Position numbers and translations under genes: made by a program
Assembly: GCF_036370855.1 (NCBI RefSeq)
Contig: NC_088111.1
Span: forward strand, 25,021,501-25,085,500
Length of the DNA: 64,000 nt
Direction of reading: 5' to 3'
From: Dromaius novaehollandiae
Lineage: Eukaryota; Chordata; Aves; Casuariiformes; Dromaiidae
The notes under the pieces: generated by a model
What the model saw: only the letters and a program-made list of their open reading frames with translations
Database searches by the model: none
Told to the model about the DNA's origin: nothing
Shown: positions 5,881-39,150 of the stretch, piece by piece
Position numbering within the stretch: position 1 is the stretch's first letter
How the letters are laid out: each line of letters begins with the position of its first letter

Positions 5881-7060
5881 CCTCTGTATGCCTAAGTGGA
5901 GGACTCGCACGAGGAGGGAAGAGGGATGCTAAGAGGGCTGGAGAACCCACGCAGGGCTCTGGGGCGCAACAAAGGCTTCCAGAAGCAGTTATGAATGGAT
6001 GACAGGGGTCGTACAAGGACTAAAGGGCCAAAACAGAGCTCAGGCAAAAAAGGAAGGCTGACAGAGTAGTCCAGAATAAAATAAAGGGGTTCCTCAGGGC
6101 TCTACAGAACCAACAGAGGTCTATGCAGCACAACAAAGCTCTAAAGAGGAATCCAGAGCAGATTAGATATCTCTTATGCAGACTAGAGAGCAACTAAAAG
6201 AAGCCAGAAGAGAATAAGTAAAGCCTCCAAAGGGGTTCAGAAGAAAACACGGGTACTCAGGCAGCTGAATGATGAAAAGAGCACTCTAGGGCATAAGAGA
6301 GGGCTCAGGAAGAGTTCTGAGACCACTGAAGAACTCCTAAAGGAGTTAGAGAGCCAAAAGACAGCGCTAGGGAACAAGGAAGGCCAAAAGAGTAGTCCAG
6401 AGGGCACTATAGACATACTAAGGGACCCATATGGCCAAGGAATGACTCTAGAGAACAAGGAAGAAATCTGGAGGGCTTCTGAGGAGACTAGAGAGTTCCA
6501 AAGGGGACTGTGCAGCCACAGGACACCTCTGGTGCACAACAAGCACCCCACCCCAGGAGTGGTTCTGAGCAGACCAGAGGACTCCTAAGGGGACTAAATG
6601 GCAAAAACTGGCTAACATGACTGACCTCAGGAGGTGCTCTGAGGGGACAGGAAGGCTCTTCTGGGATGCATATGACCAAAAGAGGGCTCTGGGGCACAAC
6701 GAAGACCTCCAGAGGGGTTCTGAGTGCACTACAGGGGTCCTAAGGAAACTCGAGATCCAAAACAAAGCTTGGGAGCATGACAAAGGCCTTCACAAGCCAG
6801 CTGAGGGGACTAGAGGGGTGCTGAGGGGTCTGGAGGGCCAACAAAGCTCTGCAGGGGGAAAATAAAAGGTCAAAACATGAGGCCAAAGCAGAATAGAAGG
6901 CTGATAAGTGTGCTAGAAGGCAAAAAGATGGCTCCACAGCATAAAGAAAGGCTCCACGGAAATTCTGAGGGATCTACCAGGGTCCTAAAGCGCTCTAGAA
7001 ATCCAAAACACAACTCTCAGGCAAAAAGAAGGCTGATAGAAGATTCCAGTCTGCACTAAA
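5880..7060 (+). repeat. Left degenerate flank of the satellite array
   Basis: The sequence is made of diverged units carrying the array's key words in plus orientation: GGGGTNCTAAGG, GAGGAGACTAGAG, CTCTGGGG and GGGGACTAGAGGGG. They recur at roughly 40- and 80-bp spacing. The stretch 6540-6650 resembles 21385-21500 on the other side of the array (shared words CAAAAACTGGCTAAC or close variants, and ACCTCAGGAGGTGCTCTGAG). These are probably old members of the family that escaped recent homogenisation. Confidence 0.7.
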
Positions 7061-8040
7061 GGAGTGCTAAGGTGTCTATATGCTCAAGAAATGCCTCTGG
7101 GGAAGAAGGGAGAAATCTGGAGGGGTTGCGAGGAGATAAGAGGGTGTCTAAGGGGTCTGGGGGGCCAGAAGAGAGCTGGGGGGCCCCATTCTGTGCGAAA
7201 AGAGTGGTCTAGAGTGCAGTAGAGGGGTGCTAAGGCGTCTACATGCTCAAGAAATGCCCCTGGGGAAGAAGTGAGAAATCTGGAGGGGTTGCGAGGAGAC
7301 TAGAGGGGGTCTAAGGGGTCTGGGGGGCCAGAAGTGAGCTGGGGGGCCCCATTCTGTGTGAAACAGTGGTCCAGAGCGCACTAGAGGGGTGCTAAGGCAT
7401 CTACATGGTCCAGAAATGCCTCTGGGGAAGAAGGGAGAAATCTGGAGGGGTTGCGAGGAGATGAGAGGGTGTCTGAGGGGTCTGGGGGGCCACAAGAGAG
7501 CTGGGGGCCCCATTCTGTAGAAAAGAGGGGTCCAGAGCGCACTACGGAGATCTTAAGCAGTCTACACTGTCAAGAAATGCCTCTGGGGAAGAAGGCAATA
7601 ATCTGGAGGAGTTAGGAGAAGACTAGAGAGTGTCTAAGGGGTCTGGGGAGCCAGGAGAGAGATGGGGGGCCCCATTCTGTGGAAAAGAGGGGTCCAGATT
7701 GCGCTAGAAGGATGCTAAGTCATCTACGTGGTCCAGAAATGCCTCTGGGGAAGAAGGGAGAAATCTGGAGGGGTTGCAAGTAGACTGGAGGGTGTGTACG
7801 CGGTCTGGGGGGCCAGAAGAGAGCTGGGGGGCCCCATTCTGTGGAAAAGAGTCATCCAGAGCACACTAGAGGAATGCTAAGGCATCTACGTGGTCCAGAA
7901 ATGCCTCTGGGGCAACAGGGAGAAATCTGGAGGGGTTGCAAGGAGACTAGAGGGTGTCTAAAGGGGTCTGGGGGGCCAGCAGAGTGCTGCGGGGGCCCAA
8001 TTCTGTACACAGGAGTGGTCCAGAGTGCACTAGAGGGGTG

Positions 8041-9010
8041 CTAGGGCGTCTACATGCTCAAAAAGTGCCTCTGGGGAAGAAGGGAGAAATCTGGAGGGGT
8101 TGTGAGGAGACTAGAGGGTGTCTACAGGGTCTGGGGGTCCTGAAGAGAGCTGGGGGGCCCCATTCTGTGGAAAAGAGGGGTCCAGAGCACACTAGAGGGG
8201 TGCTAGGGCATCTACACTGTCAAGAAATGCCTCTGGGGAAGAAGGGAGAAATCTGAGGGGTTGCAAAGAGAGCAGAGGGTGTGTATGGGGTCTGGGGGTT
8301 CCAAAGAGAGCTGGGGGGCCCCATTCTGTGGGAAAGAGGGGTCCAGAGGATACTAGAGGGGTTCTAAGGCATCTACATGGTCCAAAAATGCACCTGGAGA
8401 AGAAGGGAGAAATCTGGAGGGGTTGCGAGGAGACTAGAGGGTGTCTAAGGGGTCTAGGGGGCCAGAAGAGAGCTGGGGGGCCCAATTCTGTACAAAGGAG
8501 GGGTCCAGAGTGCACTAGAGGGGTGCTAGGGCGTCTACATGCTCAAAAAGTGCCTCTGGGGAAGCAGGGAGAAATCTGGAGGGGTTGTGAGGAGACTAGA
8601 GGGTGTCTACAGGGTCTGGGGGTCCTGAAGAGAGCTGGGGGGCCCCATTCTGTGGAAAAGAGGGGTCCAGAGCACACTAGAGGGGTGCTAGGGCATCTAC
8701 ACTGTCAAGAAATGCCTCTGGGGAAGAAGGGAGAAATCTGAGGGGTTGCAAAGAGAGCAGAGGGTGTGTATGGGGTCTGGGGGTTCCAAAGAGAGCTGGG
8801 GGGCCCCATTCTGTGGGAAAGAGGGGTCCAGAGGGTACTAGAGGGGTTCTAAGGCATCTACATGGTCCAAAAATGCACCTGGAGAAGAAGGGAAAAATCT
8901 GGTGGGGTTGCGAGGAGACTAGAGGGTGTCTAAGGGGTCTAGGGGGCCAGAAGAGAGCTGGGGGGCCCAATGCTGTACAAAGGAGGGGTCCAGAGTGCAC
9001 TACAGGGGTG
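8041..9010 (+). repeat. Recent 485-bp (three-monomer) duplication in the array
   Basis: The variant words CTAGGGCGTCTACATGCTC and AAAAAGTGCC begin at 8041 and again at 8526, exactly 485 bp apart. The intervening three monomers are nearly identical, including unusual variants such as GTGTGTATGGGGTCTGGG and CACCTGGAGAAGAAG. This is a clear local higher-order repeat, younger than most monomer divergence in the array. Confidence 0.85.
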
Positions 9011-12000
9011 TTAAGACATCTACACTGTCAAGAAATGCCTCTGGGGAAGGAGGAACAAATCTGGAGGGGTTGCGAGGAGACTACAGGGTATCTACGGGGT
9101 CTGGGGGGCCCGAAGAGAGCTGGGGGGCCCCATTCTGTGGAAAAGAGTGTTCCAGATTGCACTAGAGGGGTGCTAAGGCATCTACATGGTCAAGAAATGC
9201 CTCTGGGGAAGAAGGGAGAAATCTGGAGGGGTTGCAAGGAGAGCAGAGGGTGTCTAAGGTGTCTGGGGGGGCACAAGAGAGCTGGGGGGCCCAATCCTGT
9301 GGAAAAGAGTTGTCCAGATTGCGCTAGAAGAGTGCTAAGGTGTCTACATGGTCAAGAAATGCTTATGGGGAAGAAGACAATAATCTGGAGGAGTTAGGAA
9401 AGACTAGAAGATGTCTAAGGGGTCTGGGGGGCCAGCAGAGAACTAGGGAGCCCCATTCTGTACAAAGGAGGAGTCCAGAATGCACTAGAGGGGTGCTAAG
9501 GCGTCTTCACTGTCAAGAAATGCTTCTAGGGAAGAAGGGAGGAATCTGGAGGGGTTGCAAGGAGACTAGAGGGTGTCTACGGGGTCTCGGGGGCCAGGAG
9601 AAAGCTGCGGGGGTGGGGGGGGCGAATTCTGTACAAAGGAGGGCTCCAGAGTGCACTAGAGGGGTGCTAGGGCATCTGCATGGTCAAGAAATGCCTCTGG
9701 GGAAGAAGGGAGAAATCTGGAGGGATTCTGAGGAGACGAGAGGGTGTCTGAGGGGCCTGGGGGCCCAAAAGAGAGCTGGGGAGCCAATTCTGTGGAAAAG
9801 AGGGCTCCAGAGCGCACTAGAAGGGTGCTAAGGCGTCTACATGGTCAAGAAATGCCTCTAGGGAAGAAGGGAGAAATCTGGAGGGGTTGCAAGGAGACTA
9901 GAGGATGTCTGAGGGGTCTGGGGGGGCAGCAGAGAGCTGGGGGGCCCAAATCTGCACAAAGGAGTGGTCCAGAGTGCACTAGAGGAGTGCTAGGGCATCT
10001 GCATGGTCTAGAAATGGCTCTGGGCAAGAAGGGAGAAATCTGGAGGGGTTGCGAGGAGACTAGAGATTGTCTAAGGGGTCTGGGGGGCCAGAAGAGAGCT
10101 GGGGGGCCCAATTCTCTGGAAAAGAGGGGTCCAGAGCATACTAGAGGGGTGCTAAGGCATCTACACTGTCAAGAAATGCCTCTGGGGAAGAAGGGAGCAA
10201 TCTGGAGGGGTTGCGAGGAGACTAGAGGATGTCTGAGGGATCTGGGGGGCCACAAGAGAGCTGCAGGGGCCCCATTCTGTGGAAAAGAGGGGTCCAGAGT
10301 GCCGTGGAGGGGTGCTAAGGCATCTACATGGTCCAGAAATGCCTCTGGGGAAGAAGGGAGAAATCTGGAGGGGTTGTGAGGAGACTAGAGGGTGTCTAAG
10401 GGATCTGGGGGGCGAGCAGAGAGCTGCGCGGGCCCCATTCTGTGGAAAAGAGGGGTCCAGAGTGCCGTAGAGGGGTGCTAAGGCATCTACACTGTCAAGA
10501 AATGCCTCTGGGGAAACAGGGAGCAGTCTGGAGGGGTTGCAAGGAGACTAGAGGGTGTCTGGGGGTCTAGGAGAGAGCTGCGGGAGCCCAATTCTGTACA
10601 CAGGAGCGGTCCAGAGTGCACTAGAGGGGTGCTAAGGCGTCTACATGCTCAAGAAATGTCCCTGGGGAAGAAGTGAGAAATCTGGAGGAGTTGCGAGGAG
10701 ACTAGAGGGGGTCTAAGGGCTCTGGGGGGCCAGAAGTGAGCTGGGGGGCCCCATTCTGTGCGAAACAGTGGTCCAGAGCGCACTAGAGGGGTGCTAAGGC
10801 ATCTACATGGTCCAGAAACGCCTCTGGGGAAGAAGGGAGAAAGCTGGAGGGGTTGCGAGGAGACTAGAGGGTGTCTAAGGGGTCTGGGGGTCCCGAAGAG
10901 AGCTGGGGGGCACAATTCTGTGAAAAAGAGGGCTCCAGAGCGCACTAGAGGGGTGCTAAGGCGTCTACATGGTCCAGAAATGCCTCTGGAGAAGCAGGAA
11001 CAAATCTGGAGGGGTTGCGAGGCGACTAAAGCGTGTCTGAGGGGTCTGGGGGGCCAGGAGAGAGTGGCAGGGGCCCAATTCCGTACACAGGAGGGGTCCA
11101 GCATGCATTAGAGGGGTGCTAGGGCGTCTAAATGCTCAAGAAGTGCCTCTGGGGAAGAAGGGAGAAATCTGAAGGGGTTCCGAGGAGACTAGAGGGCGTC
11201 TAAAGGGTCTGGGGGGCCAGAAGATATCTGGAGGGCCCCATTCCGTGGAAAAGAGGGGTCCAGAGCACACTAGAGGAGTGCTAAGGTGTCTACATGGTCC
11301 AGAAATGCCTCTGGGCAAGAAGGGAAAAATCTGGAGGGGTTGTGAGGAGACTAGAGGGTGTCTAAGGGGTCTGGGGGGCAAGCAGAGAGATCGGGGGCCC
11401 CATTCTGTACAGAGGAGAGGTCCACAGTGCACTAGAGGGGTGCTAAAGCATCTACATGGTCCAGAAATGCCTCTGGGGAAGCAGGAAGAAGTCTGGAGGG
11501 GATCTGAGAAGACGAAAGGGTGTTTAAGAGTCTGGGGGGCCAGAAGAGAGCTGGGGGGCCCCATTCTGTGGAAAAGAGGGGTCCAGAGTGCAGTAGAGGG
11601 ATGCTAAGGCGTCTATACGTTCAAAAAATGCTTGTGGGGAGGAAGGAAGAAATCTGGAGGGGTTACGAGGAGACTAGAAGGTCTCTAAGTCTGGGGGCCT
11701 TAACAGAGCTGGGGGCCCCATTCTGTGGAAAAGAGGGGTCCAGAGCGCACTAGAGGAGTGCTAGGGCGTCTACACTGTCAAGAAATGCCTCTGGGGAAGA
11801 AGAGAGTAATCTGGAGGTGTTGTGAGGAGACTAGGGGGTGTCTGAGGGGTCTGGGGGACAGAAGAGAGCTGGGGGGCCCCACTCTGTGGAAAAGAGGGCT
11901 CCAGAGTGCATAAGAAGGGTGCTAAGGCATCTACATGGCCCAGAAATGCCTCTGGGGAAGAAGGGAGAAATCTGCAGGGGTTGCGAGGAGACTAGAGGAT

Positions 12001-12239
12001 ATCTAAGCAGCCTGGGGGGCCAGAAGAGAGCTGGGGGGCTGCATTCTGTGGAAAAGAGGGGTCCAGAGCGCACTAGAGGGGTGCTAAAGCGTCTACATGG
12101 TCAAGAAATGGCTCTGGGAAAGAAGGGAGAAATCTGGAGGGGTTGCGAGGAGACTAGAGGGTGTATAAAGGGGCCTGGGGTGCTCGAAGAGAGCTGGGGG
12201 GCCCCATTCTGTGGAAAAGAGGGTTCCAGAGCATACTAG

Positions 12240-12315
12240 AGGGGTGCTAAGGCATATACATGTTATAGAATTGGCTAGGGTACTAAGATATCTGCACTGT
12301 CAAGAAATGCCTCTG
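12240..12315 (+). repeat. Variant monomer with an extra A-type subunit
   Basis: Here the usual CTAAGG..TCTACA subunit occurs twice in a row. The first copy is altered to read GTTATAGAATTGGC before a second TAGGGTACTAAGATATCTGC. The same variant recurs at about 12.93-12.98 kb and 15.09-15.13 kb, and in reverse complement at about 19.75-19.79 kb. It marks segments of the array that were copied together. Confidence 0.7.
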
Positions 12316-13127
12316 GGGAAGAAGGGAGGAAATCTGGAGGGGTTGCGAGGAGACTAGAGGGGGTCTAAGGGGTCTGGGGGGCCACAGGAGAGCTGGGGGG
12401 GCGCATTCTGTGGAAAAGAGGGCTCCAGAGTGCATTGGAAGGGTACCAAGGCGTCTACATGGTCCAGAAATGCCTCTGGGGAAGAAGGGAGAAATCTAGA
12501 GGGGTTGTGAGGAGACTAGAGGGTATCTAGAGGGTCTGGGGGACCAGAAGAGAGCTGGGGGGCCCCATTCTGTGGAAAAGAGGGGTCCAGAGTGCACTAG
12601 AGGGGTACTAAGGCGTCTACACTGTCAAGAAATGCCTCTGGGGAAGAAGGGAGAAATCTGGAGGTGTTGCTAGGAGACTAGAGGGTATCTAGAGGGTCTG
12701 GGGGACCACAAGAGAGCTGGGGGGCCCCATTCTGTGGAAAAGAGGGGTCCAGAGTACACTAGAGGAGTGCTAAAGTATCTACATGGTCCAGAAATGCCTC
12801 TGGGGAAGAAGGGAGAAAGCTTGAGAGGTTCTCAGGAAACTAGAAAGTGTCTAAGGGGTCTGGGGGGCCAGAAGAGAGCTGGGGGGCGAATTCTGTGGAA
12901 AAGAGGCGTCCAGAGCGCACTAGAGGGGTGCTAAGGCATCTACATGTTACAGAATTGGCTACGGTGCTAAGATGTCTACACTGTCAAGAAATGTCTCTGG
13001 GGAAGAAGGGAGAAATCTAGAGGGGTTGTGAGGAGACTAGAGGCTGTCTAAGGGGTCTGGGGGCCAAAAGACAGCTGGGGGGCGCATTCTGTGTAAAAGA
13101 GGGGTCCAGAGTGCAGTGGAAGAGTGC

Positions 13128-13289
13128 TCTTTTCCAGAGAATGCGGCCCCCCAGCTCTCTCCTGGCACCCCAGACGCCTTAGACCCCCTCTAGTCTCCTC
13201 GCAACCCCTCCAGATTTCTCCCTTCTTCCCCAGAGGCATTTCTTGACAGTGTAGACGCCTTAGCACCCCTCTAGTTCGCTCTGGACCCC
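13128..13289 (-). repeat. Inverted satellite block 1 (one monomer)
   Basis: Plus-oriented units switch to minus at GTGCTCTTTTCC (about 13128) and back at GGACCCCCAAGGTG (about 13289). The block is about 160 bp, one monomer. Confidence 0.85.
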
Positions 13290-14092
13290 CAAGGTGTCTA
13301 CACTGTCAAGAAATGCCTCTGGGGAGGAAGGGAGAAATCTGGAGGGGTTGCGAGGAGACTAGAAGGTGTCTAAAGGGGCCTCGGTGGCCAGAAGAGAGCT
13401 GGGGGCCCCATTCTGTGAAAAAGAGGGGTCCAGAGCACATTAGAGGGTTGCTAAAACCTCTAAATGGTATAGAATTGGCTCTGGGGAAGAAGGAAAACAT
13501 CTGGAAACATTGCGAGCACACTAGAGGGTGTCTAAGGGGCCTGGGGGAGCAGAAGAGAGCTGGGGGGGGGCCCATTCTGTGGGAAAGAGGGGTGCAGAGC
13601 ACACTAGAGGGGTGCTAAAACCTCTAAATGGTATACAATTCGCTCTGGGGAAGAAGGGAGGAATCTGGAGGGCTTCTGAGGAGAATAGGGGGTGTCTAAG
13701 GGGTCTGGGTGCCAAAAGAGATTTGGGGGGGGCCCATTCTGTTGAACGTAGGGCTTCAGAGTGCAGTAGAGGGGTGCTAAGGTGTCTACATCGTCCAGAA
13801 ATACCTCTGGGGAAGAAGGGAGAAATCTGGAGGGGTTGCCAACAGACTAAAGGGTGTCTACGGGGCTTGGGGGGCCAGAAAAGAGCTGGGGGTTCCACTC
13901 TGTGGAGAAAAGGAGTCCAGAGCGCACTAGAGAGGTGCTAAGGTGTCTACATGGTCAAGAAACGCCTCTGGGAAAGAAGGGAGAAATCTGGAGGGGTTGC
14001 GAGGAGACTAGAGGATGTCTAAGGAGTCTGGGGGGCCAGGAGAGAGCTGGGGGGCCAGGAGAGAGCTGGGGGGCTGCGTTCTGTGGAAAAGA

Positions 14093-14434
14093 GCACCCTT
14101 CTACTGCGCTGTGGACCCCTCTCTTCCACAGAATGTGCCCCCCCAGCTCTCTTCTAGTCCCCCAGACCCCTTAGACACCCTCTAGTCTCCTCGCAACCCC
14201 TCCAGATTTCTCCCTTCTTCCCCAGAGGCATTTCTTGACACTGTAGACACCTTAGCACCCCTCTAGTGCATTCTGGACCACTCTTTTCCACAGAATGCGC
14301 CCCCCCAGCTCTCTTGTGGCCCCTCAGACCCCCTCTAATCTCCTCGTAACCCCTCCAGATTTCTCCCTTCTTCCCCAGAGGCATTTCTTGATCATGTAGA
14401 CACCTTGGCACCCCTCTAGTGCGCTCTGGACCCC
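14093..14434 (-). repeat. Inverted satellite block 2 (two monomers)
   Basis: The switch to minus reads GGAAAAGAGCACCCTTC, the reverse complement of the first block's entry junction. The switch back is GGACCCCTAAGGTG. The block is about 340 bp. Confidence 0.85.
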
Positions 14435-15417
14435 TAAGGTGTCTACATGATCAAGAAATGCCTCTGGGGAAGAATGGAAAAATCTGGAGGGGTTGCAAGG
14501 AGACTAGAGGACGTCTAAGGGGTCTGGGGGGCCAGAAGACAGCTGGGGTGCCGCATTCAGTACAAAAGAGGGGTCCAGAGTGCACTAGAGGGGTGCTAAG
14601 GAATGTACACTGTCAAGAAATGCCTCTGGGGAAGAAGGGAGAAATCTGGAGGGGTTGTGAGGAGACTAGAGGTTTTTTATGGGTCCTGGGTGGCCAGAAG
14701 AGAGCTGGGGGGCCCCATTCTGTGGAAAAGATGGGTCCAGAGTGCACTAGAGGGGTACTAAGGCATCTACACTGTCAAGAAATGTCTCTGGGGAAGAAGG
14801 GAGAAATCTGGAGGCGTTGCGAGGAGACTAGAGGGTGTCTAAGGGGTCTGGGGGGCCAGAAGAGAGCTGGGGGGGCCCATTCTGTGGAAAAGAGGGGTCC
14901 AGAGCGCACCAGAGGGGTGCTAAAGTGTCTACATGGTCCAGAAATGCCTCTGGGGAAGAAGGGAGAAAGCTGGAGAGGTTCTCAGGATACTAGAGAGTGT
15001 CTAAGGGGTCTAGGGGGACAGAAGAGAGCTGGGGGGCGAATTCTGTGGAAAAGAGGGGTCCAGAGCGCACCAGAGGGGTGCTAAGGCATCTACATGTTAT
15101 AGAATTGGCTAGGGTGCTAAGATGTCTTCACTGTCAAGAAATGCCTCTGGGGAAGAAGGGAGAAATCTAGAGGGGTTGCGAGGAGACTAGAGGCTGTCTA
15201 AGGGGTCTGGGGGGCCACAAGAGAGCTGGGGGGGCCACATTTCTGTCGAAAAGAGGGATCAAGAGCGCACTGGAGGGTTGTGAAGGTGTCTACGCTGTCA
15301 AGAAATGCCTCTGGGGAAAAAGGGAGAAATCTGGAGGGGTTGCGAGGAGACTAGAGGGTGTCTAAGGCGTCTGGGGTGCCAGGAGAGAGCTGGGGGGCTG
15401 CATTCTCTGGAAAAGAG

Positions 15418-15738
15418 GACCCTTCTACTGCGCTCTGGACCCCTCTTTTCCACAGAATGGGGGCCCCCAGCTGTCTTTTGGTCCCCAGACCCCTTAGACA
15501 CTCTCTAGTTTCCTGAGAGCCTCTCAAGCTTTCTCCCTTCTTCCCCAGAGACATTTCTTGACAGTGTAGACGCCATGGCACTCCTCTAGTGCGCTCTGGA
15601 CCCCTCTTTTCCACAGCATTGCGCCCCCGGCACTCTTCTGGCCCCCAGACCCCTTGGACACCCTCTGTAGTCTCCTCGCAACCCCTCCAGATTTCTCCCT
15701 TCTTCGCAGGAGGCATTTCTTGACCATGTAGACACCTT
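15418..15738 (-). repeat. Inverted satellite block 3 (two monomers)
   Basis: Entry is through GGAAAAGAGGACCCTTC. Exit is through CACCTTAGGGGTCC, the reverse complement of the exit junction of blocks 1 and 2. The block is about 320 bp. Confidence 0.85.
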
Positions 15739-15927
15739 AGGGGTCCAGAGCGCACTAGAGGGGTGCCAAGGCGTCTACACTGTCAAGAAATGCCTCTGGG
15801 GAAGAAGGGAGAAATCTGGAGGGGTTGCGAGGAGACTAGAGTGTGTGTAAAGGGGCCTGGGGGGCCAAAAGAGAGCTAGGGGGGCGTATTCTGTTGAACA
15901 GAGGGCTTGAGAGGGCACTAAAGGGGT

Positions 15928-16061
15928 GCTCTTTTCCACAAAGTGGGGACCCCACCTCTCTTTTGGTCCCCAGACCCCTAAGACACCCTGTAGTCTCCGC
16001 AGAAGCCCTCCAGATTGCTTCCTTCTTCCCCATAGGCATTTCTTGACCGTGTCAACACCTT
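15928..16061 (-). repeat. Inverted satellite block 4 (shortened monomer)
   Basis: Entry is GTGCTCTTTTCC and exit CACCTTAGGGGTCC. The block is about 133 bp and shares its variants (AAAGTGGGGACCCC, CGTGTCAACACC) with block 5, so the two are copies of one event. Confidence 0.85.
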
Positions 16062-16577
16062 AGGGGTCCAGAGCGCACTAGAGGGGTGCTAAGGTGTCGA
16101 CATGGTCAAGAAATGCCTCTGGGGAAGAAGGGAGAAACCTGGAGTGGTTGCGAGGAGACTAGAGGGTGTCTAAAGGGGACTGGGGGGCCAGGAAAGAGCT
16201 GGGGGAGTCGCATTCTGTGGAAAAGAGGGATCCAGAGTGCACTAGAGGGGTGCCAAGGCGTCTGCACTGTCAAGAAATGCCTCTGGGGAAGAAGGGAGAA
16301 ATCTGGAGGGGTTGTGAGCAGAATAGAGGGTGTCTAAGGGGTCTGGAGGTCCCAAAGATATCTGGGTGGCCCAATTCTGTAGAAAAGAGCGGTCCAGAGT
16401 GCACTAGAGGGGTGCTAAGGTGTCGACACTGTCAAGAAATGCCTCTGGGGAAGAAGGGAGAAATCTGGAGGGGTTGCTTGGAGACTAGAGGGTGTCTAAG
16501 CGGTCTGCGGGGGCAAAAGAGAGCCAGGGGGGCCTATTCCGTTGAACAGAGGGTTCAAGAGGGCACTAGAGGGGTGC

Positions 16578-16709
16578 TCTTTTCCATAAAGTGGGGACCC
16601 CCCCTCTCTTTTGGTCCCCAGACCCCTAAGACACCCTGTAGTCTCCGCAGAAGCCCTCCAGATTGCTTCCTTCTTCCCCACAGGCATTTCTTGACCGTGT
16701 CAACACCTT
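16578..16709 (-). repeat. Inverted satellite block 5 (copy of block 4)
   Basis: It has the same junctions and nearly the same sequence as block 4, about 650 bp further on. That spacing equals about four monomers, consistent with duplication of a segment containing the block. Confidence 0.85.
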
Positions 16710-19332
16710 AGGGGTCCAGAGCGCACTAGAGGGGTGCTAAGGTGTCGACATGGTCAAGAAATGCCTCTGGGGAAGAAGAGAGAAGTCTGGAGGGGTTGCG
16801 AGGAGACTAGAGGGTGTCTAAGGGGTCTGGGGGGCCAGAAGAGAGCTGGGGGGCCATTCTGTGGAGAAGAGGGGTCCAGAGCGCACAAGAGGGGTGCTAA
16901 CGTTTGTACACTGTCAGGAAATGTCTCTGGGGAAGAAGGGAGAAATCTGGAGGGGTTGCGAGGAGACTAGAGGACGTCTAAGGTGCCTGGGCTGCCACAG
17001 GAGGGCTGGGGGGCCAATTCTGTGTAAAAGAGGGGTCCAGAGTGCACTAGTGGGGTGCTAAGGCCTCTACACTGTCAAGAAATGCTTCTGGGGAAGAAGG
17101 GAGAAATCTGGAGGGGTTGCGAGGAGACTAGAGGGTGTCTAAGGGGCCTGGGGGGCCAGAAGAGAGCTGGGGGGCCCATTTCTGGGGAAAAGAGGGGTCC
17201 AGAGCGCACTAGAGGGTTTCTAAGGCGTCTACACTGTCAAGAAATGGCTCTGGGGATGAAGGGAGAAATCTAGAGGGCTTGCCAGGAGACTAGAGGGTGT
17301 CTAACGGGCCTGGGGGGCCAGAAGAGAGCTGGCGGGGACCATTCTGTGGAGAAGAGGGGTCCAGAGCGCACTAGAGGGGTGCTAAAGCATCTACATGGTC
17401 CAGAAATGCCTCTGGGGAAGAAGGGAGCAATCTGGAGGGGTTGCCAGGAGACGAGAGGGTGTCTAAGGGGTCTCAGGGGGCCCACAGAGACCTGATGGGG
17501 CCCATTTGTGGGGAAAAGAGGGCTCCAGAGCGCACTAGAGGGGTGCTAAGGCGTCCACACTGTCCAGAAATGCCTCTGGGGAAGAAGGGAGAAATCTGGA
17601 GGAGTTGCGAGGAGACTAGAGGGTGTCTAAGGGGCCTGGGGGGCCAGAAGACAGCTAGAGGACCCAATGCTGTGGAAAAGAGGAGTCCAGAGTGCACCGG
17701 GGAGTGCTAAGGCGTCTACACTGTCCAGAAATGCCTCTGGGGAAGAAGGGAGAAATCTGGAGGGGTTGCGAGGAGACCAGAGGGTGTCTAAGCGGTCTGG
17801 GGGGCCAGAATAGAGTTGGGGCGCCCAATTCTGTACAAAGTAGGGCTCCAGAGTGCACTAGAGGGGTGCCAAGGCGTCTACATGGTTAAGGAATGCCTTT
17901 GGGGAGGAAGGGAGAAATCTGGAGGGGTTGCTAGGAGATGAGAGGGTATCTAAGGATCCTGGGGTGCTCGAAGAGAGCTGGGGGGCCCCATTCTGTGGAA
18001 AAGAGGGGTCCAGAGTGCACTAGAGGGGTGCTAAAGCATCTACATCATCAAGAAATGCCTCTGGGGAAGAAGGGAGAAATCTGGAGGGGTTGCGAGGAGA
18101 CTAGAGGGTGTCTAAGGGGTCTGGGGGGCCCACAGAGACCTGATGGGGCCCATTTCTGGGGAAAAGAGGGCTCCAGAGCGCACTAGAGGGTTTCTAAGGC
18201 GTCTACACTGTCAAGAAATGCCTCTGGGTAAGAAGGGAGAAATCTGGAAGAGTTGCGAGGAGACTAGAGGGTGTCTAAGGGGCCTGGGGGGCCAGAAGAC
18301 AGCCAGAGGACCAAATGTTGTGGAAAAGAGGGGTCCAGAGTGCACAATAGAGGGGAGCTATGGTGTCTACATGGTCCAGAAATGCCTCTGGGGAAGAAGG
18401 GAGAAATCTGGAGGGGTTGCAAGAAGACTACAGAGGGTGTCTAAACGGGCCTGGGGTGCTCGAAGAGAGCTGGGGGGGCCATTCTGTGGAGAAGAGGGGT
18501 CCAGAGTGCACAAGAGGGGTGCTAAAGTATCTACATGGTCCAGAAATGGTTCTGGGAAAGAAGGGAGAAATCCAGAGGGATTGCGAGGAGACTAGAGGCT
18601 GTCTAGAGGGTCTGGGGGACCAGAAGAGAGCTGGAGGACCCAATGCTGTGGAAAAGAGGGGTCCAGAGCACACTAGAGGGGTGCTAAGGCGTCTACATGG
18701 TCCAGAAATGCCTGTAAGGAAGAAGGGAGAAATCTGGAGAGGTGGCGAGGAGACTAGAGGGTGTCTAGAGGGTCTGCGGGGCCAGAAGAGAACTGGAGGA
18801 CCCATTCTATGGAAAAGAGGGGTCCAGAGCACACTAGAGGGGTGCTAAGGTGCCTACATGGTGAAGAAACACCTCTGGGGAAGAAGGGAGAAATCTGGAG
18901 GGGTGGCGAGCAGACTAGAGGGTGTCTAAAGGGCCTGGGGGGCCACAAGAGAGCTGGAGGGGGGGCCCTTCTGTGGAAAAGAGGGCTCCAGAGTACACTA
19001 GAGGGGTACTAAGGTGTCTACACTCTCAAGAAATGCCTCTGGGGAAGAAGGGAGAAGTATGGAGGCGTTGCTAGGAGACTAGAGGGTGTCTAGAGGGTCT
19101 GGGGGACCAGAAGACAGCTGGGGTGCCCCATTCTGTGGAAAACAGGGGTCCAGAGTGCACTAGAGGGGTGCTAAAGTATCTACATGGTCAAGAAATGCCT
19201 CTGGGGAAGAAGGGAGAAAGCTTGAGAGGTTCTCAGGAAACTAGAGAGTGTCTAAGGGGTCTGGGGGGCCAGAAGAGAGCTGGGGGGCACATTCTGTGGA
19301 AAAGAGGGGTCCAGAGCGCAGTGGAAGGGTGC

Positions 19333-19821
19333 TCTTTTCCAGAGAATGCGGCCCCCCAGCTCTCTCCTGGCATCCCAGACGCCTTAGACCCCCTCTATTG
19401 TCCTCGCAACCCCTCCAGATTTCTCCCTTCTTCCCCAGAGGCGTTTCTTGACCATGTAGGCAACTTAGCACCCCTCTAGTGTGCTCTGGACCCCTCTTTT
19501 CCACAGAATGGGGCCGCCCAGCTCTCTTCTGGCCCCCCAGGCTCCTTAGACACCCTCTCGTCTCCTCGCAACCCCTCCAGATTTCTCCCTTCTTCCCCAG
19601 AGGCATTTCTTGACAGCGTAGACACCTTCACAACCCTCCAGTGCGCTCTTGACCCCTCTTTTCGACAGAAATGTGGCCCCACCAATTCTCTTGTGGCTCC
19701 CCAGGCCCCTTAGACACCCTCTAGTCTCCTCGCAATCCCCCTAGTGTAGACATCTTAGCACCCTCGCCAATTCTATAACATATAGATGCCTTAGCACCCC
19801 TCTAGCGCGCTCTGGACCCCT
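19333..19821 (-). repeat. Inverted satellite block 6 (three monomers)
   Basis: Entry is GTGCTCTTTTCCAGAGAATG, matching block 1 beyond the junction itself. Exit is GGACCCCTAAGGTG. The block is about 488 bp and includes the extra-subunit variant in reverse complement at about 19755-19790. Confidence 0.85.
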
Positions 19822-21199
19822 AAGGTGTCTACGTAGCCAAGAAATGCCTCTGGGGAAGAAGGGAGAAATCTGGAGGGGTTGCGAGGACACTAGAGGCTGT
19901 CTAAGGGGTCTGGGGGGCCACAAGAGAGCTGGGGGGCACAATTCTGTGGAAAAGAGGGGTCCAGAGTGCACTAGAGGGGTGCTAACGCCTCTACACTGTC
20001 AAGAAATGCCTCTGGGGAAGAAGGGAGAAATCCGGAGGGGTTGTGAGGAGAGTACAGGATGTCTAAAGGGGTCTGGGGGCCAGAAGAGAGATGGGGGGCC
20101 CCATTCTGTGGAAAAAAGGGGTCCAGAGTGCACTAGAGGAGTGCCAAGGCGTCTACACGGTCCAGAAATGCCTCTGGGGAAGAAGGGAGAAATCTGGAGG
20201 GGTTGCGAGGAGACTACAAGGTGTCTAAGGGGTCTGGGGGGCCCCCAGAGAGCTGGGGGCCCCATTCTGTGTAAAAGAGGGGTCCAGAGTGCACTAGAGG
20301 GGTGCTAAGGCCTCTACACTGTCAATAATTGCTTCTGGGAAAGAAGGGAGAAATCTGGAGGGGTTGCAAGGAGACTAGAGGGTGTCTAAGGGGTCTGGGG
20401 GGCCAGAAGAGAGCTGGGGGGCACAATTCCGTGGAAAAGAGGGATCCAGAGTGCACTTGAGGGGTGCTAACGTGTATACAGTGTCAAGAAATGCCTCTGG
20501 GGAAGAAGGGAGAAATCTGGAAGTGATGCAAGGAGACTAGAGGGTGTCTAAGGGGGCAGAAGACATCTGGGGGGCCCAATTCCATGGAAAAGAGGGGTCC
20601 AGAGCGCACTAGAGGGGTGCTAAGGAGTCTACATGACCCAGAAATGGCTCTGGGGAAGAAGGGAGCAATCTGGAGGGATTGCCTGGAGACTGGAGGGGGT
20701 CTAAAGGGTCTGGGGGGGCCAGAAAACATCTGGGGGGCCCAATTCCATGGAAAAGAGGGATCCAGAGCACACTAAAGGGGTGCTAAGGCATCTACATGGT
20801 CCAGAAATTGCTCTGGGAAGAAGGGAGAAATCTGGAGGGATTGCAAAGAGACTAGAGGGTGTCTAAGGGGTCTGGGGGCCAGAAAAGAGCTGGTGGACCG
20901 CGTTGTGGAGAAGAGGGGTCCAGAGTGCACTAGAGGGGTGCTAAGGAATGTACACTGTCAAGAAATGCCTCTGGGGAAGAAGGGAGAAATCTGGAGGGGT
21001 TGCGAGGAGACTAGAGGGTGTCTAGAGGGTCTCGGGGGCCAGAAGAGAGTTGGGGGGGGCATTCTGTGGAAAAGAGGGGTCCAGAGCACACTGGAGGGGT
21101 GCTAAGGTGTCTACATGGTCCAGAAATGGCTCTGGGGAAGAAGGGAGAAATCTGGAGGGGTTGCGAGGAGACTAAATGGTGTCTAAGGTGCCTGGGGGG

Positions 21200-22190
21200 C
21201 CCTAAGACAGCTCCAGGTCACAGCAAGCACCCCAGTAGGGGTGTTCTGAGCAGGCGAGGTGTTTTAAGGGGAGTAGGTGGCCAAAAACCCAACTGTGGGG
21301 AACCAGGACGAAATATGAATGGTTTCTGAGGAGACCAGCTGTTCTCTAGGAGGCCTGGGGTCCAGAGAACAGCTCTGGGGCCATACCAGCACCCCAGGAG
21401 GCATGCTCAGCAGAGCAGAGGGGTCCTAAGGGGCCTAAACAGCCAAAATAGGAGAACTGGCTAACAAGGAAGACCTCAGGAGGTGCTCTGAGGGGACAGG
21501 AGGGGATGGATTTTGAGCAGACTAGGGGATGCATAGAGGTATGTGAGGCACAACCAAGGAAGACAGAGGAGTCTTAAGGGGACTGGAAGGAAAGGGGAGC
21601 AGAAGGAAAGGGGATCTGATGGGATAGAGGGCACGTGGAATGGTCATAGGGATAGGGCATAGAGAGGACTCCACAGTGCAGCCAATGGAAAAGAAGGGCC
21701 GTAGGGCATACTGAAAGGGTGCAATGAATGCACAGGGTTCTGGGGTACCCCCAAGGCAAACCAAGGCGTCCTGAGGGGAGTGTGTGGCACTCAGAGGGGT
21801 TCTGATGGGGCTAAAGGGCTAGGAGATGGACCCTAAGGGGCTCAGAGGGCAAAGAGAGGCATCCTGAGAGGACTAGAGGGAAAAGCAAAGGCGCCGAGAC
21901 GCACCAATGGCAAACGGAGAGGTTTTGAGGAGACTAGAGAGAAAAGAGGGGGGACTTAATAGGACAAGAGGACAAACATAGGAGTCTTGATGCTACCAGA
22001 GGGCCTACAGACACCAAATGTCAGAATAACCTTGCAGGAACTAGAAAGCAGCAAAGAATTTTGAAGGGACAAGAGAACAAATGGAATGCCTTGGAGCACA
22101 CCTAAAAGCAAATGGATTGGTCCTGAGGGAACTAGGGAGCAAATGGGGGAGTCCTGGGGGGGACGTGGAGGAAAACTGAAGGTTCTGGGG
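21200..22190 (+). repeat. Right degenerate flank of the satellite array
   Basis: Diverged units with GGGGTCCTAAGGGG, CTGAGGGGACAGGAGG and GAGGAGACTAGAG words continue past the last clean monomer and fade by about 22.19 kb. The start of this flank resembles part of the left flank. No gene is visible. Confidence 0.7.
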
Positions 22191-22201
22191 CATTAGCTCA
22201 C

Positions 22202-22389
22202 CTGCCATAATCTTCCTGTGTGGAGCCTGCTTCTTCCCTCTGAGAAGTTGGCCTTTGCTTTCACTGCACAGGCAGCTGTGAGCTGTTGCGTAGTCTCGGC
22301 AGACAAGTTGGGGATCGCTGCCCAGGCAGTCGTGACCTGCAACACTGCATGCTCAGAACAGTTCTCAGGAAGTCACGCGTACTCATAAC
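22202..22389 (-). other. Internal exon candidate, minus strand (188 nt)
   Basis: On the minus strand the acceptor TTTTTGCTCTTCAG (ending at 22390) is followed by 188 nt and a consensus donor GCAG|GTGAGC (GT at 22201-22200). The polypyrimidine tract, AG and extended donor are all good. One frame reads VMSTRDFLRTVLSMQCC and stops within the exon, so either another frame is used or the transcript is noncoding. Its nearest upstream CpG island on this strand is at about 23.45-24.1 kb. The encoded product is not recognised. Confidence 0.4.
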
Positions 22390-23449
22390 CTGAAGAGCAA
22401 AAAGCAAATCTCTCTTAAGGTCAGTTTTTATTTCATCATAGGAGCAAGTTTTCCCTCTCTTCTGCACTGTACTGCCTCTAACAGCACACCTTCCTCATCA
22501 CCATTTTCCCCTGCTCCTTTCACTCCTCTCAGTTGCCCCTGCATCTTAGACCTCTAAAGCAGCTGTTTCTCATCCACAGGTACTTTCCTGTCCTGTTGCC
22601 GATTCACCCCCCAGTTGTCCTATAGCAAGCAGTTGAGACACCTTGGCCTAATTCTTAGCCGCACACGCCTTTTGATCTGGCAAGCAGCTCAGACAGAGCA
22701 GAGGGCAGCAAGAAAGGTGGATCTGAATGTAGTAGACTTGGGCACCGAGCAAGATGGAAGCAGCAGCAAGGCATCAAAGAGATGGCATCTTTGTAAAGAG
22801 AAGAGATATAGTTCCAGGCAACCAGGGATTCTCTGTACCTGTGGCCAGGGCTCCTGCCTGCAGGCTCTTTCCACACAGTTAAAGGTAGCTGAACGCAGTG
22901 CCCTTGGGAGGCAGTGACATGGTGTCCCCGGTACTGCTGTGGGGTGGCTGTTCCAGGGTCTCTCAGGCTGTTTTGGGGTCCTTGGACAGAGACAGTGCTG
23001 TTCACATTTCCTTGAGGACTTTCCCTTGTGCTGCACAGCAGGACAGCTGCACACCGTGCCCTCCCAGCACTGCCACTCCTCATAGCTGCTGCCTAATTGG
23101 CCCCAATCTTGAGCAAAGCTACAACTACCAGGAGCCCCCAGCGCCCCTCCTACTCTCCCTGCCCTCCCCATTTCCAAGAGGGACAGCCCCAGCCCCTGGG
23201 GACAAGCCTGCCTGGTCACACCAGAGATGGAAAATGCTTCCTGCCTTGTACCAGGGAAAACCAGGGAAATGCCACTGTCCCCAATGACCTATGGGGACTC
23301 CTGCGTGAGCGGCACACGTCCAGTAAGGAACAGACCCGGCAGGCCACTGCTGCAAGGCCGAGAAGGCACCGGCACCTGGAACTGCAGCTCCTGGCCTGCC
23401 ACAGAGCATAACGTGGCCGGCTGGTGAGAACCCCGCTGGCAAAGGACTG

Positions 23450-24130
23450 CCCCTCCGGCCGCCTCGAGAGGCACAGCAGGCTGTCCGAGAAGCCCAATGC
23501 GGGAAGACTACATCTCCCGGCATGCCGTTCAAACAAAAAAGGCCTCCCGGAAGCCTGGTGCCGGAAGACTACCGCTCCCAGCATGCCGCGCAAACCAACA
23601 TGGCCTCCCGGAAGCCCGGTGCCGGAAGACTACCACTCCCGGCATGCCAGCGGCGCCCCCGGCCCCCCCCACTCCCCCCCCCGTAGCGCTAGGTGAAGTT
23701 TAACCCTGTGGAGATTCCGTTCCTTTCCGTCCCGCCCCCGTTCCCTTTTCCTCCCTGTCTCCCCGGAATCCACCGCAGAGCCCCGAGCGCGACCCCGCGG
23801 TCCACAGCACCGGTCCGGGGCTCCCCCGACACCGCCGCGGCCGGCTACGGGTCAACTCCAACACTGCCCCTGCCTCCCCCCACAACCCTCCCTGCGCTTC
23901 CCCTGGGATCCCTCCTCCCCCTCCCCAACGCGGTCCCGAGCGGACATAGGAGACATCCCCCGCCCCCCCCGCGCTCCTCCGACCGCGCAATAAACCGCAC
24001 CACAGCCCCAGCGGACCGCCTGCCTTCCCCCCTCCCCCGTCCTGGCGCACCCCCCTTCTTCCCCCCCAGCACCACTGCAGACCCACCGCACCTCCTTCCT
24101 CCCCACCCGAACCCCAACGCACCCCCTTAC
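23450..24130. other. CpG island in copy 1
   Basis: This is a C-rich, CpG-dense stretch beginning at the motif array, with many CCGCC, CCCCGC and CGCG words. It is continuous with CCCCACC-rich sequence to about 24.4 kb. Proline-rich frames on plus and glycine-rich frames on minus follow from composition. Confidence 0.65.
23461..23655 (+). promoter_or_regulatory. Array of three ZNF143/THAP11-type motifs at 61-bp spacing
   Basis: ACTACNNCTCCCRGCATGCC-like sites start at 23507, 23568 and 23629, exactly 61 bp apart (the first reads ACTACATCTCCCGGCATGCC). The consensus is the well-known ACTACAATTCCCAGCATGC element bound by ZNF143, ZNF76 and THAP11/HCFC1 at vertebrate promoters. Each 61-bp unit also carries CCGGAAG (ETS-type) just before the motif, except the first unit, which has CGGGAAG. 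Units two and three carry another CCCGGAAG upstream, and the third unit has an AACATGGC word like a YY1 site. This is probably a strong CpG-island promoter. The direction of transcription is not determined. Confidence 0.7.
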
Positions 24131-24819
24131 CCCCACATACCACCACAGCCTCGGCACACCCCCTTCCTCCCTCCACCTCCATGGCCCTGGTGCACTGCTC
24201 TTCCCCACCACATCCTCAGCCCCCACTGCCCTGGCACACCGCCCTCCCTAGCCCCAGTGCAGTTTCCCCTGGCCCCAGTGCACCCCAGTTGTGCTGCGCT
24301 GCCCAGGACACTCCCACCCACCAGGACCCCCGGCACGTGAGGGACCTGCAGCCCGGAGCGCGCACCCCCCCAGCCCCGCTCACCTCCTCCGCAGGGCAGC
24401 CACGTGCCAGTCCCAGGCAGCAGTGCTCAGCAGCAGCTCCATCGTCCGGAACCAGCCCCAGCACGAGCTTCTCCCAAATGCAGCCCCAGCCCAGGTGTGT
24501 GCCCACCCTTGCCATCAGCCCCACCTGGGGCTTGTCGCACCTGTCCCAGCCATGGAGCCCCACCTGGGGCCTGTCCTGCCACCCAGCTCCACCTGGCATT
24601 CAGCCCAGCCCCAGGGCCTGCAGCTGCAGCCCATCAGGAACTGGGGAGAGGGAATGGCCATCAGCCCCATCAGGGACAACTGGGGCTGCCAGGGCAGCAG
24701 AGGCACCCCCACTCCTGAGAGCAGCTTCCTGAAAGCTGAAGGGAGAGGCCTGGGGTATAGAGAGGGGAAAGGGGAGTATGCAGAGGACAAGAGAACAAAT
24801 GGAGAGCTCTGGGTGCAAC

Positions 24820-24968
24820 AAAAGTAGAAAAAGGCAATGACAGAGCAAACAGAGTGACTCTGGGGGCACCACCAAGAAGCACCCAGAAAACTCTGGGACA
24901 GGAGAGAAAGCTAAACAGAGAACTTTGCAGTGTGCTGCAAAACAACCACAGGGCCCAACAAAAGGCAC
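24820..24968 (+). repeat. Degenerate AG-rich repeats
   Basis: Words such as ACTCTGGGGGCACCA and GGACAGGAGAGAAAGC recall the worn edges of the satellite family. The similarity is loose. Confidence 0.4.
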
Positions 24969-25815
24969 ACAGAGCCCTTGGGGGCAACCCAAAATGTGAA
25001 TTGAGGGCTCCGGAGGGCATCAGAGGGCAAATGCAGGGCTCTGGGGCAAAGCAAAATACAAATAAAGGGGCTTAGGGCACACCAGAGGGGCCATAAGGCA
25101 TGTCACAGGGCTCAGTGCAGCTGACAGGATGGTGCCTGCGGGCTCCCCCCGCCCCCATGGAACCTCTATCTCCCCACTCCAGGCACACAGGCCCTGGCAC
25201 CAGACCCACAAGGGACACTGGGGAGTGCTGAAAGCAAATCCAGAAGCAGTCTGGGGACCTCACATAGCCCTGCAGGGGCCCTGGCTGCCCCCACAATGAT
25301 GGGAAACACCCCCAAGAGCCCAGGCAACGCAAGGGAAATTCCCCACAGCTCTGTCAACAGCACTGGGTTCCCTGGGAAGCGCAGGCACTCCAAAGTACAA
25401 GGGACTCGGGGACCAGCTCCCAGCCCCAGACACAATGTGTAACCTCCTCCCCTGGGCATCATCTTCAGGCAAACCGACAGCAGGAACCACAGAGATGAGT
25501 GCAAAGAATAAAGCAACTGTTTATTGCTTTACTGCGCAGAAACAATAGCTGGAAGCAAGTCTGCCATGGAGCTCAGTGTCAGCATGCTTCCCCTTACCTG
25601 TGATGCCTGAAGAGTCATCACCACACCAGCGTCCATCCATCCATCAGGGAAGGGTCATCTCCTGCTGCTGCCCTTGATGTGGCAGGTGTCCGAGTAGCTG
25701 ACAGCCTACTCCTCTGCTTTTTCCTTCAGGCATAGGATTCATCTCAGAGATGAGAGGAAAATGCCTGATCTTGCCTGTCTGCACTTCTGCCCTACCCCAG
25801 GCTAGAGCCCTGCAA
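24968..25815. repeat. Segmental duplication source or copy (pairs with 32.75-33.48 kb)
   Basis: The block matches 32751-33475 from ACACAGAG..GGGGGCAACCCA to GCCAGAGCC-like sequence. Shared words include CAGGATGG, AACACCCCCAAGAGCCC and AGGCAACGCAAGGGAAATTC. About 85 bp at 25485-25570 is missing from the other copy. A plus-strand acceptor-like CTTTTTCCTTCAG occurs at about 25717-25729 in both copies. The first part resembles degenerate satellite-type repeats. Confidence 0.9.
25507..25525. terminator. Back-to-back polyadenylation signals
   Basis: AATAAA lies on plus at 25507-25512 and on minus at 25520-25525, within the copy-specific 85-bp segment. This arrangement could serve convergent transcripts. 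There is no other evidence for transcript ends here. Confidence 0.3.
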
Positions 25816-38249: not shown

Positions 38250-39150
38250 CCGCCACCACCCCCCCGCGGGGCCACCTCGAGAGGCGCAGCATGGTCACCC
38301 AGTAGCCCCGCCTGAGAAGACTACACCTCCCAGCATACCGTGCACGCGAAAAGGGCGGCCCGGAAGCCCAGTGTCGGAAGACTACTGCTCCCGGCATGCC
38401 ATGCCAAACAACATGGCCGCCCGGAAGCCCAGTGCCGGAAGACTACCGCTCCCAGCATGCCGTGCTCAGAACAAACATGGCCGACCGGAAGCCCAGTGCC
38501 GGAAGACTACTGCTCCCGGCATGCCGCGCCGAAAGCTACGGCTCCCCGCATTCCCGCACCCCAACTCCCGCCCCCCACCCGCAGCGCTGGGGCACCTTTG
38601 ACCCTCGGCACATTCCGTTCCTTTCCGTCCCGCCCCCCTTCCCCTTCCCCCCTGTCCCCCCGGAAACCGCCGCAGAGCCCCGAGCGCGGCCCCGCCAGCC
38701 CCACCACCGGCCCGGGGCTCCCCCGACACCCCCGCGACCGGCCCCGCCTCAGCTCCGACACTGCCCCCGCCCCTCCACGACCCTCCCGAGGCCGCCCCCC
38801 GCGATCCCTCCTCCCCCCGCTCCCCGACACGCTCCCGAGCTGACACAGGAGACCCCCCCCCCCCCCCGCGCTCCTCCGACCGCACAGTAAACCGCACCAC
38901 AGCCCCGGCGCACCCCTTCCTCCCCTCGCCTCCGTGGCCCTGGGGCACCCCTCTTCCCCACCACGTCCTCGGCCCGCACCGCCAGCCCTGGCCCCGGTGG
39001 TGCTGCGGCACCTGGCACGCTCCCAGCTGCCGGCACCCCCAGCGCACGCAGGACCCGCAGCACGCCTCCCCTGGCCCCACTCACCTTCTCCGCGGGGCGG
39101 CCGGCGGGTCGTGCTCCGCGGCAGCTCTGCTGCCCAGGTCCTGCCCCAGT
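38250..39150. other. CpG island in copy 2
   Basis: This stretch is dense in CCGCC, CCCGCCCC and CGCG, starting around the motif array. It contains a C run at about 38854-38868. Gly-rich minus and Pro-rich plus frames are compositional. Confidence 0.65.
38300..38555 (+). promoter_or_regulatory. Array of four to five ZNF143/THAP11-type motifs at 61-bp spacing
   Basis: Motifs ACTACNNCTCCCRGCATRCC start at 38320, 38381, 38442 and 38506, with spacings 61, 61 and 64. A decayed copy (GCTACGGCTCCCCGCATTCC) starts at 38535. Three of the units have a CGGAAG core immediately upstream (GTGTCGGAAG, GTGCCGGAAG) and another CCCGGAAG or ACCGGAAG 18-20 bp before that. Units three and four have ACATGGCCG, a YY1-like word. 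This is the counterpart of the array at 23.5 kb, with more units. It probably marks a promoter. Confidence 0.7.

Follow-up and report, generated by a model that had tools for sequence, protein, structure and literature searches.

Inverted modules of an emu satellite share two reciprocal junctions and probably descend from one founding inversion

Satellites organised as higher-order repeats evolve by unequal exchange and conversion, recombination between inverted repeats produces inversions, and invertible DNA is switched by site-specific recombinases. Among avian repeats, the 41-bp subtelomeric repeat PO41 of chicken and quail is arranged in tandem and in inverted orientation, and its inverted arrays have been suggested to cause breaks and recombination (PMC3091757). 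Passages of the PO41 literature describe short inverted tracks, seen with sense and antisense probes for fluorescence in situ hybridization and in sequence databases (PMC3091757, PMC4301066), transcripts from both strands, with inverted tracks (PMC4301066), a G+C content of 63% (PMC3091757), and a location on a chicken dot chromosome, with CNM, another 41-bp repeat, forming higher-order repeats (PMC9974502). Here we analyse a 162-bp satellite array in 64,000 nucleotides of DNA from the emu, Dromaius novaehollandiae (positions 25,021,501 to 25,085,500 of NC_088111.1; hereafter the window), in which six inverted blocks are bounded by two recurrent junctions, J1 and J2.

The array was segmented by the Viterbi method with a circular 162-bp profile refined on the array, strand jumps being free. 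Exactly 12 strand switches are present, every one of them J1 (13126, 14093, 15418, 15928, 16576 and 19331) or J2 (13289, 14435, 15738, 16061, 16709 and 19821), and about 11% of the bases lie on the minor, inverted strand. These are the switches of the original prediction, displaced by at most 2 bp, and both junctions do occur in both orientations, as it had claimed (J1 four against two, J2 three against three). At base resolution, the junction 14-mer is exact in 9 of the 12 cases and carries a single mismatch in three (13122, 15409 and 13283). J1 links phase 14 of the monomer to phase 151, and J2 links phase 150 to phase 17. The exchange points read GTG-CT-AAG (phases 14-17) and AAG-AG-GGG (phases 149-152; CCC-CT-CTT on the other strand) and have only CT in common, while J1 reads GTG-CT-CTT and J2 reads CCC-CT-AAG. 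Since in both junctions the shared CT could belong to either flank, the two are reciprocal products of one exchange. Of the 20,524 classes of inverted junction that the consensus permits, 1,093 have microhomology of 2 bp or more, and chance recurrence of the two junctions is excluded.

The two breakpoints thus divide the monomer into a module X (133 bp, phases 17-149) and a module Y (25 bp, phases 152-14). Between about 12.0 and 20.3 kb, X and Y alternate, each in direct or inverted orientation (the latter written x or y), interrupted only by a 36-bp duplication and a small number of further indels. The six inverted blocks comprise two of type AA, two of type AB, one BA and one BB (Table 1). 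AB and BA blocks are the leftovers of a simple inversion, and AA and BB blocks require a later exchange or flip.

We propose, with a probability of roughly three in four, that a single founding micro-inversion spread as copies through unequal exchange and exchange between chromosomes, and that recombination between inverted copies flipped it again from time to time. One small conservative inversion would have taken place in the subtelomeric satellite between the two CT points of a unit, and the broken ends, probably by end-joining, would have been joined across the shared 2-bp CT to give J1 and J2. Later homologous events would only copy or flip these junctions, never create new ones. Unequal exchange, array amplification and chromosome-end exchange would have brought the inverted module to hundreds of sites, and exchanges of an inverted X with a direct one, by crossing-over or gene conversion, would occasionally have flipped neighbouring modules, so that Y/x/Y (AB) became AA, BB and BA blocks one to four monomers long. 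The same sequence of founding inversion, unequal exchange and re-inversion had been put forward in the original prediction and is the best supported of the readings, although we infer its single origin.

The two junctions are not confined to the window. A scan of the genome (1.468 Gb in 271 contigs, labelled C1, C2 and so on, with the window on C14) returned 714 exact copies of J1 and 757 of J2, against 5 and 8 for the reversed-pattern controls; two isolated J1 matches inside C1 (L001 and L002) lie outside the satellite. Arrays are found near the ends of C1, C2, C3, C5 and C14 and near the start of C7, and these contig ends are probably chromosome ends. We fetched 260 kb from four of the contigs (C1, 70 kb; C2, 90 kb; C3, 40 kb; C5, 60 kb), of which about 216 kb is satellite. 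Together with the window these arrays contain 196 strand switches (52, 66, 22 and 44, and 12 in the window), and 191 of them fall at J1 or J2 within 4 phases. The remaining five, four at phases 21/128 and one at 14/70, keep GGGGTGCTCT and then depart, and we interpret them as J1 copies next to which a deletion occurred. Shorter stretches of C22, C231 and C47 add 16 switches, all of them J1 or J2. One breakpoint class in 196 switches, five of them damaged, suggests that de novo inversion within satellites is rare.

In the fetched arrays the minor strand makes up 9.2% of the satellite in C1, 9.0% in C2, 10.4% in C3 and 9.4% and 7.3% in two stretches of C5. The fetched arrays hold 92 minor blocks (26, 33, 11 and 22 in C1, C2, C3 and C5), with lengths quantised near 133, 189, 351 and 512 bp. 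Fifty-seven are AB (133-135 bp) and 35 are BA (about 189, 351 or 512 bp), including five with damaged J1 that were typed by length and J2; no AA or BB block was found among the 92. AB and BA blocks sometimes recur as a pair one or two monomers apart (C22, C231, C2 and C5). Four pattern matches on C22 and C231 suggested an AA1 block, which was rejected, as the three matches read turned out to be spacers of one monomer that separate an AB from a BA block. The 30 BB1 pattern matches (C21, C24 and C29) are candidates that could likewise be such spacers; AA3 matches beyond C14 and C47:24237 are also candidates, the one on C5 being a spacer. The exact gapped AB pattern matches 367 times genome-wide, against none in the control, and among 100 matches listed its strand is constant within each contig: plus on C3, C5 and C7, where the matches lie near the contig start, and minus on C1, C2 and C6, those on C1 and C2 lying near the contig end. 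The window array breaks this rule, as it lies at the high end of C14 and yet is mainly on the plus strand.

Orientation is inherited with the sequence of the module. We grouped 1,423 X modules from the five arrays by single linkage at 95.5%, which gave 375 lineages, 137 of them with two or more members, and a single one of the 137 contains both orientations (x13129 and X15283, both from the window). In AB blocks, x belongs to one inverted-only lineage, with 59 copies on C1, C2, C3, C5 and C14 and a mean internal identity of 98.4% (minimum 92.3%). Among the 55 lineages with at least five members in C1, C2, C3 and the window, this one is the most diverged. Over the five arrays its mean identity to majority X modules is 76.6% and its highest 88.5%; pairs of majority X modules are 84.3% identical. 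BA x modules fall into two further inverted-only lineages of 38 and 34 copies. Therefore, the blocks in the large arrays are old copied cassettes, not freshly made inversions. The 59 single inverted modules bear out the predicted spread by copying, which was not local but reached other contig ends.

These locked lineages bear directly on the site-specific process that the original prediction had offered as an alternative. Continuous, recombinase-like inversion at the CT pair would account for the exact recurrence, the 2-bp common core, the presence of both orientations and the reciprocal products. However, the two sites share CT alone, orientation is mixed in that single multi-copy lineage, and free flipping should yield AA and BB blocks too, yet the blocks of C1, C2, C3 and C5 are AB or BA only. 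Non-inverting breakpoint pairs show no clear enrichment at the CT cores (2 of 13 distinct pairs, against about 10% expected). We consider such continuous inversion very improbable. The wider notion of a continuing process that targets the two CT points and inverts X or Y there, leaving heritable binary orientation marks at vertebrate chromosome ends, is hardly better placed; if it were true, the marks would alter hairpin formation, double-stranded transcripts and chromosome-end recombination.

Within the window, the same junction lineage is present in both orientations. The X modules on the phase-151 side of J1 in blocks 1, 2, 3 and 6 are mutually related, and two of them are direct and two inverted. 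Their mean identity is 92.2%, against 84.0% in random sets, none of 2,000 such sets reaching this value. Close to the junction, three sites (Y phase 6 and phases 93 and 133) unite block 1 with block 6 and block 2 with block 3, in keeping with their orientation, and at three sites farther out (phases 29, 30 and 40) block 1 goes with block 3 and block 2 with block 6. This pairing fits one flip combined with a crossover inside X, as far as can be judged from so few positions.

A reversed junction segment was also found on another contig. A 23-base pattern of the window J1 lineage has 13 matches, two in the window, eight on C47 and three on C249. On C47, 892 bp across J1 occur twice, 98.2% identical in inverted orientation (9984-10874 and 23801-24692). 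The first copy lies in a 674-bp inverted block, and the 1,834 and 1,391 bp read to its two sides are plus-strand array; around the second, a 496-bp AA block, just 440 and 164 bp of plus-strand flank were read, so that a larger inversion is possible there. Together with the four J1 copies of the window in both orientations, this segment supports the predicted re-inversion, for which homologous recombination is the probable agent. Over its 64.6 kb, C47 carries window-lineage J1 copies in changing orientation, several of them about 6.16 kb apart, and several larger inversions may therefore be present on this contig.

We simulated an array that starts from one founding inverted X and undergoes homologous events only (300 runs). 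The alternation of X and Y is kept and only J1 and J2 arise. When inverted exchange is left out, only AB survives, and all four block types appear once it is allowed. With 1% inverted exchange we obtained 464 AB, 151 AA, 123 BB and 51 BA blocks, pooled counts that are rough since 12 to 32 runs kept inverted blocks, and with 10-30% the four types are about equal. In these models, the window looks like an exchange-rich array, and the large arrays look like copied cassettes.

Two variants next to the junctions point to a common origin. T at phase 21 is found in 7 of 7 J2-adjacent lineages (C1, C2, C3 and the window) and in 33% of others (p 0.0004, uncorrected, in a post hoc test over 30 phases); counted by module across the five arrays, it is present in 97 of 98 J2-adjacent X and 527 of 1,353 others. 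C at phase 137, likewise picked post hoc, is common to AB and BA J1 and occurs in 6 of 9 J1-adjacent lineages, against 3% elsewhere.

Several observations weigh against a single origin, quite apart from the post hoc choice of these two phases. The window J1 lineage is without C137. One clade per junction type, which the original prediction had set as its test of a single origin, was recovered only in part: J1 flanks sort into three or more lineages (AB, BA and window), with differences from about 8-12 bp beyond the junction, and X modules next to J2 do not resemble one another more than random sets do (p 0.76 and 0.38 by rare variants, 0.50 and 0.09 by identity). Because the J1 flanks differ, sequence alone does not prove one origin, and we regard a common source of all J1 flank lineages as probable. 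Flank replacement so near to a junction is hard to achieve, but could result from conversion tracts that stop there. The identity of the phase-151 side fades to p 0.06 when block 4 is added and to p 0.14 with blocks 4 and 5, as both belong to the AB lineage, and when the four copies are compared in the first X on the side of J1 that faces Y, identity gives a p of only 0.07 (0.0055 by shared rare variants). Finally, the evidence comes from one assembly of one individual.

The distinct flanks could instead reflect independent inversions that recurred at fragile or structurally favoured points, each flank lineage being an event of its own that was later amplified. That flanks differ down to 8-12 bp from the junction, and that no lineage is shared among the X modules beside J2, is what such recurrence would give. 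However, a second event must hit the same one of the 1,093 microhomology classes, T21 and C137 are shared, and no other inversion class appears in the 196 switches, provided that the five exceptions are damaged J1. A fragile-site origin finds no support in the same-strand breakpoints described above or in folding, as the consensus monomer folds no better than its shuffles (z -0.53). Recurrent inversion is thus unlikely in our view, and we retain the single founding inversion.

Dependence on the assembly also raises the question of whether the inverted blocks are artefacts, the more so as C47 (64,623 bases), C231 (210,547 bases) and C249 look small or unplaced. The same junctions recur hundreds of times, however, and among the direct X examined the closest to an inverted X module of the window is 96.2% identical, and the closest to one of the AB lineage 88.5%. 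The inverted modules therefore did not arise by misjoining of these direct monomers, and we give assembly error the lowest probability of the explanations considered.

The array lies 86-100 kb from the end of C14 (25,128,939 bases). Tandem Repeats Finder (TRF) reports periods of 162 and 323 for the whole array and 81 for parts of it. Shifting the consensus against itself by 36-89 bp gave an identity above 42% at 81 bp alone, which is the half-period of the unit; a 41-bp unit was found neither in these shifts nor by TRF. Degenerate relatives of the monomer flank the array on both sides (nhmmer), and one flank resembles the spacer of other arrays (Table 1). Random X pairs are 83-85% alike, and the nearest X is on average 98-99% identical in C1-C3 but 92.7% in the window. 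The spacer-like flank, the lower nearest-neighbour identity and the degenerate relatives suggest that the C14 array may keep an older, less homogenised form and may be a source-like locus. The spacer of about 4 kb occurs in 10 copies in the C1, C2 and C5 arrays, which are 99.0-99.98% alike, one being incomplete at the fetched edge; it is entered from array phase 125 and left at phase 155, and the entry base is the same in the window.

The 36-bp internal duplication is present in three direct monomers, at 12276, 12960 and 15110 (12235-12277, 12918-12964 and 15068-15111). One inverted monomer, the third x of block 6, carries it inverted and in slightly different form (19745-19792); duplications at phases 45/12, also resembling it, occur 22 times in C1, C2, C3 and C5. 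Elsewhere in the window, TRF found a perfect 14-bp minisatellite, ACACACAGACACGT, of 12.5 copies (1586-1760) and G+C-rich tandem repeats of about 61-64 bp with GGAAGACTACnnCTCCCGGCATGCC or close forms (23489-23648 and 38316-38530), which we take to be candidates for a likeness to the ZNF143/THAP11-type promoter motif. A coding function for the array was rejected, as the stop-to-stop frames within it look like translated repeat. Five frames outside the array (of 100 listed) had no match in Pfam, Rfam gave no family in the window at the gathering threshold, no tRNA was found in the window, and a 501-bp query had no match in a phage collection. Neither an avian CR1 tail motif nor an 18-base telomere motif was found in the window.

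Table 1. Satellite array, inverted blocks and junction motifs, in window coordinates.
Feature	Coordinates	Strand	Description
162-bp satellite array	7053..21212	+ majority	about 87 monomer copies; TRF, nhmmer, Viterbi
Array flank	21213..25248	+	95-98% identical to the spacer of about 3.98 kb interrupting the C1, C2 and C5 arrays
Inverted block 1	13127..13289	-	163 bp, Y/x y/X, type AA
Inverted block 2	14094..14435	-	342 bp, X/y x y x y/X, type BA
Inverted block 3	15419..15738	-	320 bp, X/y x y x/Y, type BB
Inverted block 4	15929..16061	-	133 bp, Y/x/Y, type AB; in the inverted-only 59-copy lineage
Inverted block 5	16577..16709	-	133 bp, Y/x/Y, type AB; shares 97.7% identity in X with block 4, at a distance of 648 bp
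Inverted block 6	19332..19821	-	490 bp, Y/x y x y x y/X, type AA
J1	13122..13135	+	A orientation, 1 mismatch
J1	14085..14098	-	B orientation
J1	15409..15422	-	B orientation, 1 mismatch
J1	15924..15937	+	A orientation
J1	16572..16585	+	A orientation
J1	19327..19340	+	A orientation
J2	13283..13296	+	A orientation, 1 mismatch
J2	14428..14441	+	A orientation
J2	15733..15746	-	B orientation
J2	16056..16069	-	B orientation
J2	16704..16717	-	B orientation
J2	19814..19827	+	A orientation

Should every inverted block go back to a single event, J1 and J2 would serve as natural tracers of satellite exchange between chromosome ends, and the ratio of AB, AA, BB and BA blocks would gauge how frequent inverted exchange is relative to direct homologous exchange. 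A cytological remark on inverted tracks in avian subtelomeres would then become a system that can be counted at the level of bases.

Compared by description, the emu satellite resembles PO41 in its subtelomeric location, its presence on several chromosomes and the short inverted tracks within its arrays (the six blocks of the window and the 92 elsewhere), and differs from it in its unit (162 bp with an 81-bp half-period, against 41 bp) and G+C content (54-58%, against 63%). Inverted tracks are thus already known in PO41, whose literature passages gave no base-level inversion junctions. The literature searched, from which most subscription papers are absent, yielded no account of a fixed two-breakpoint grammar, and searches with strings of the satellite sequence returned no paper. 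The diverse monomer lineages and the near-identical copies within and between contigs are those of a higher-order-repeat satellite, but here the orientation switches are heritable, lineage-locked and made at a single breakpoint pair. Recombinase-invertible DNA has in common with this locus the reciprocal junctions, the 2-bp core and both orientations, whereas the emu sites have no matching recognition arms and orientation is lineage-locked in the large arrays; the same segment in both orientations is seen in the one mixed X lineage and in the reversed J1 segment of C47, which inverted arms can also explain. Inversion between inverted repeats offers a further likeness, in that junction-spanning segments are here reversed between homologous inverted arms, with the difference that this happens inside a satellite, in units of 25-133 bp and their multiples.

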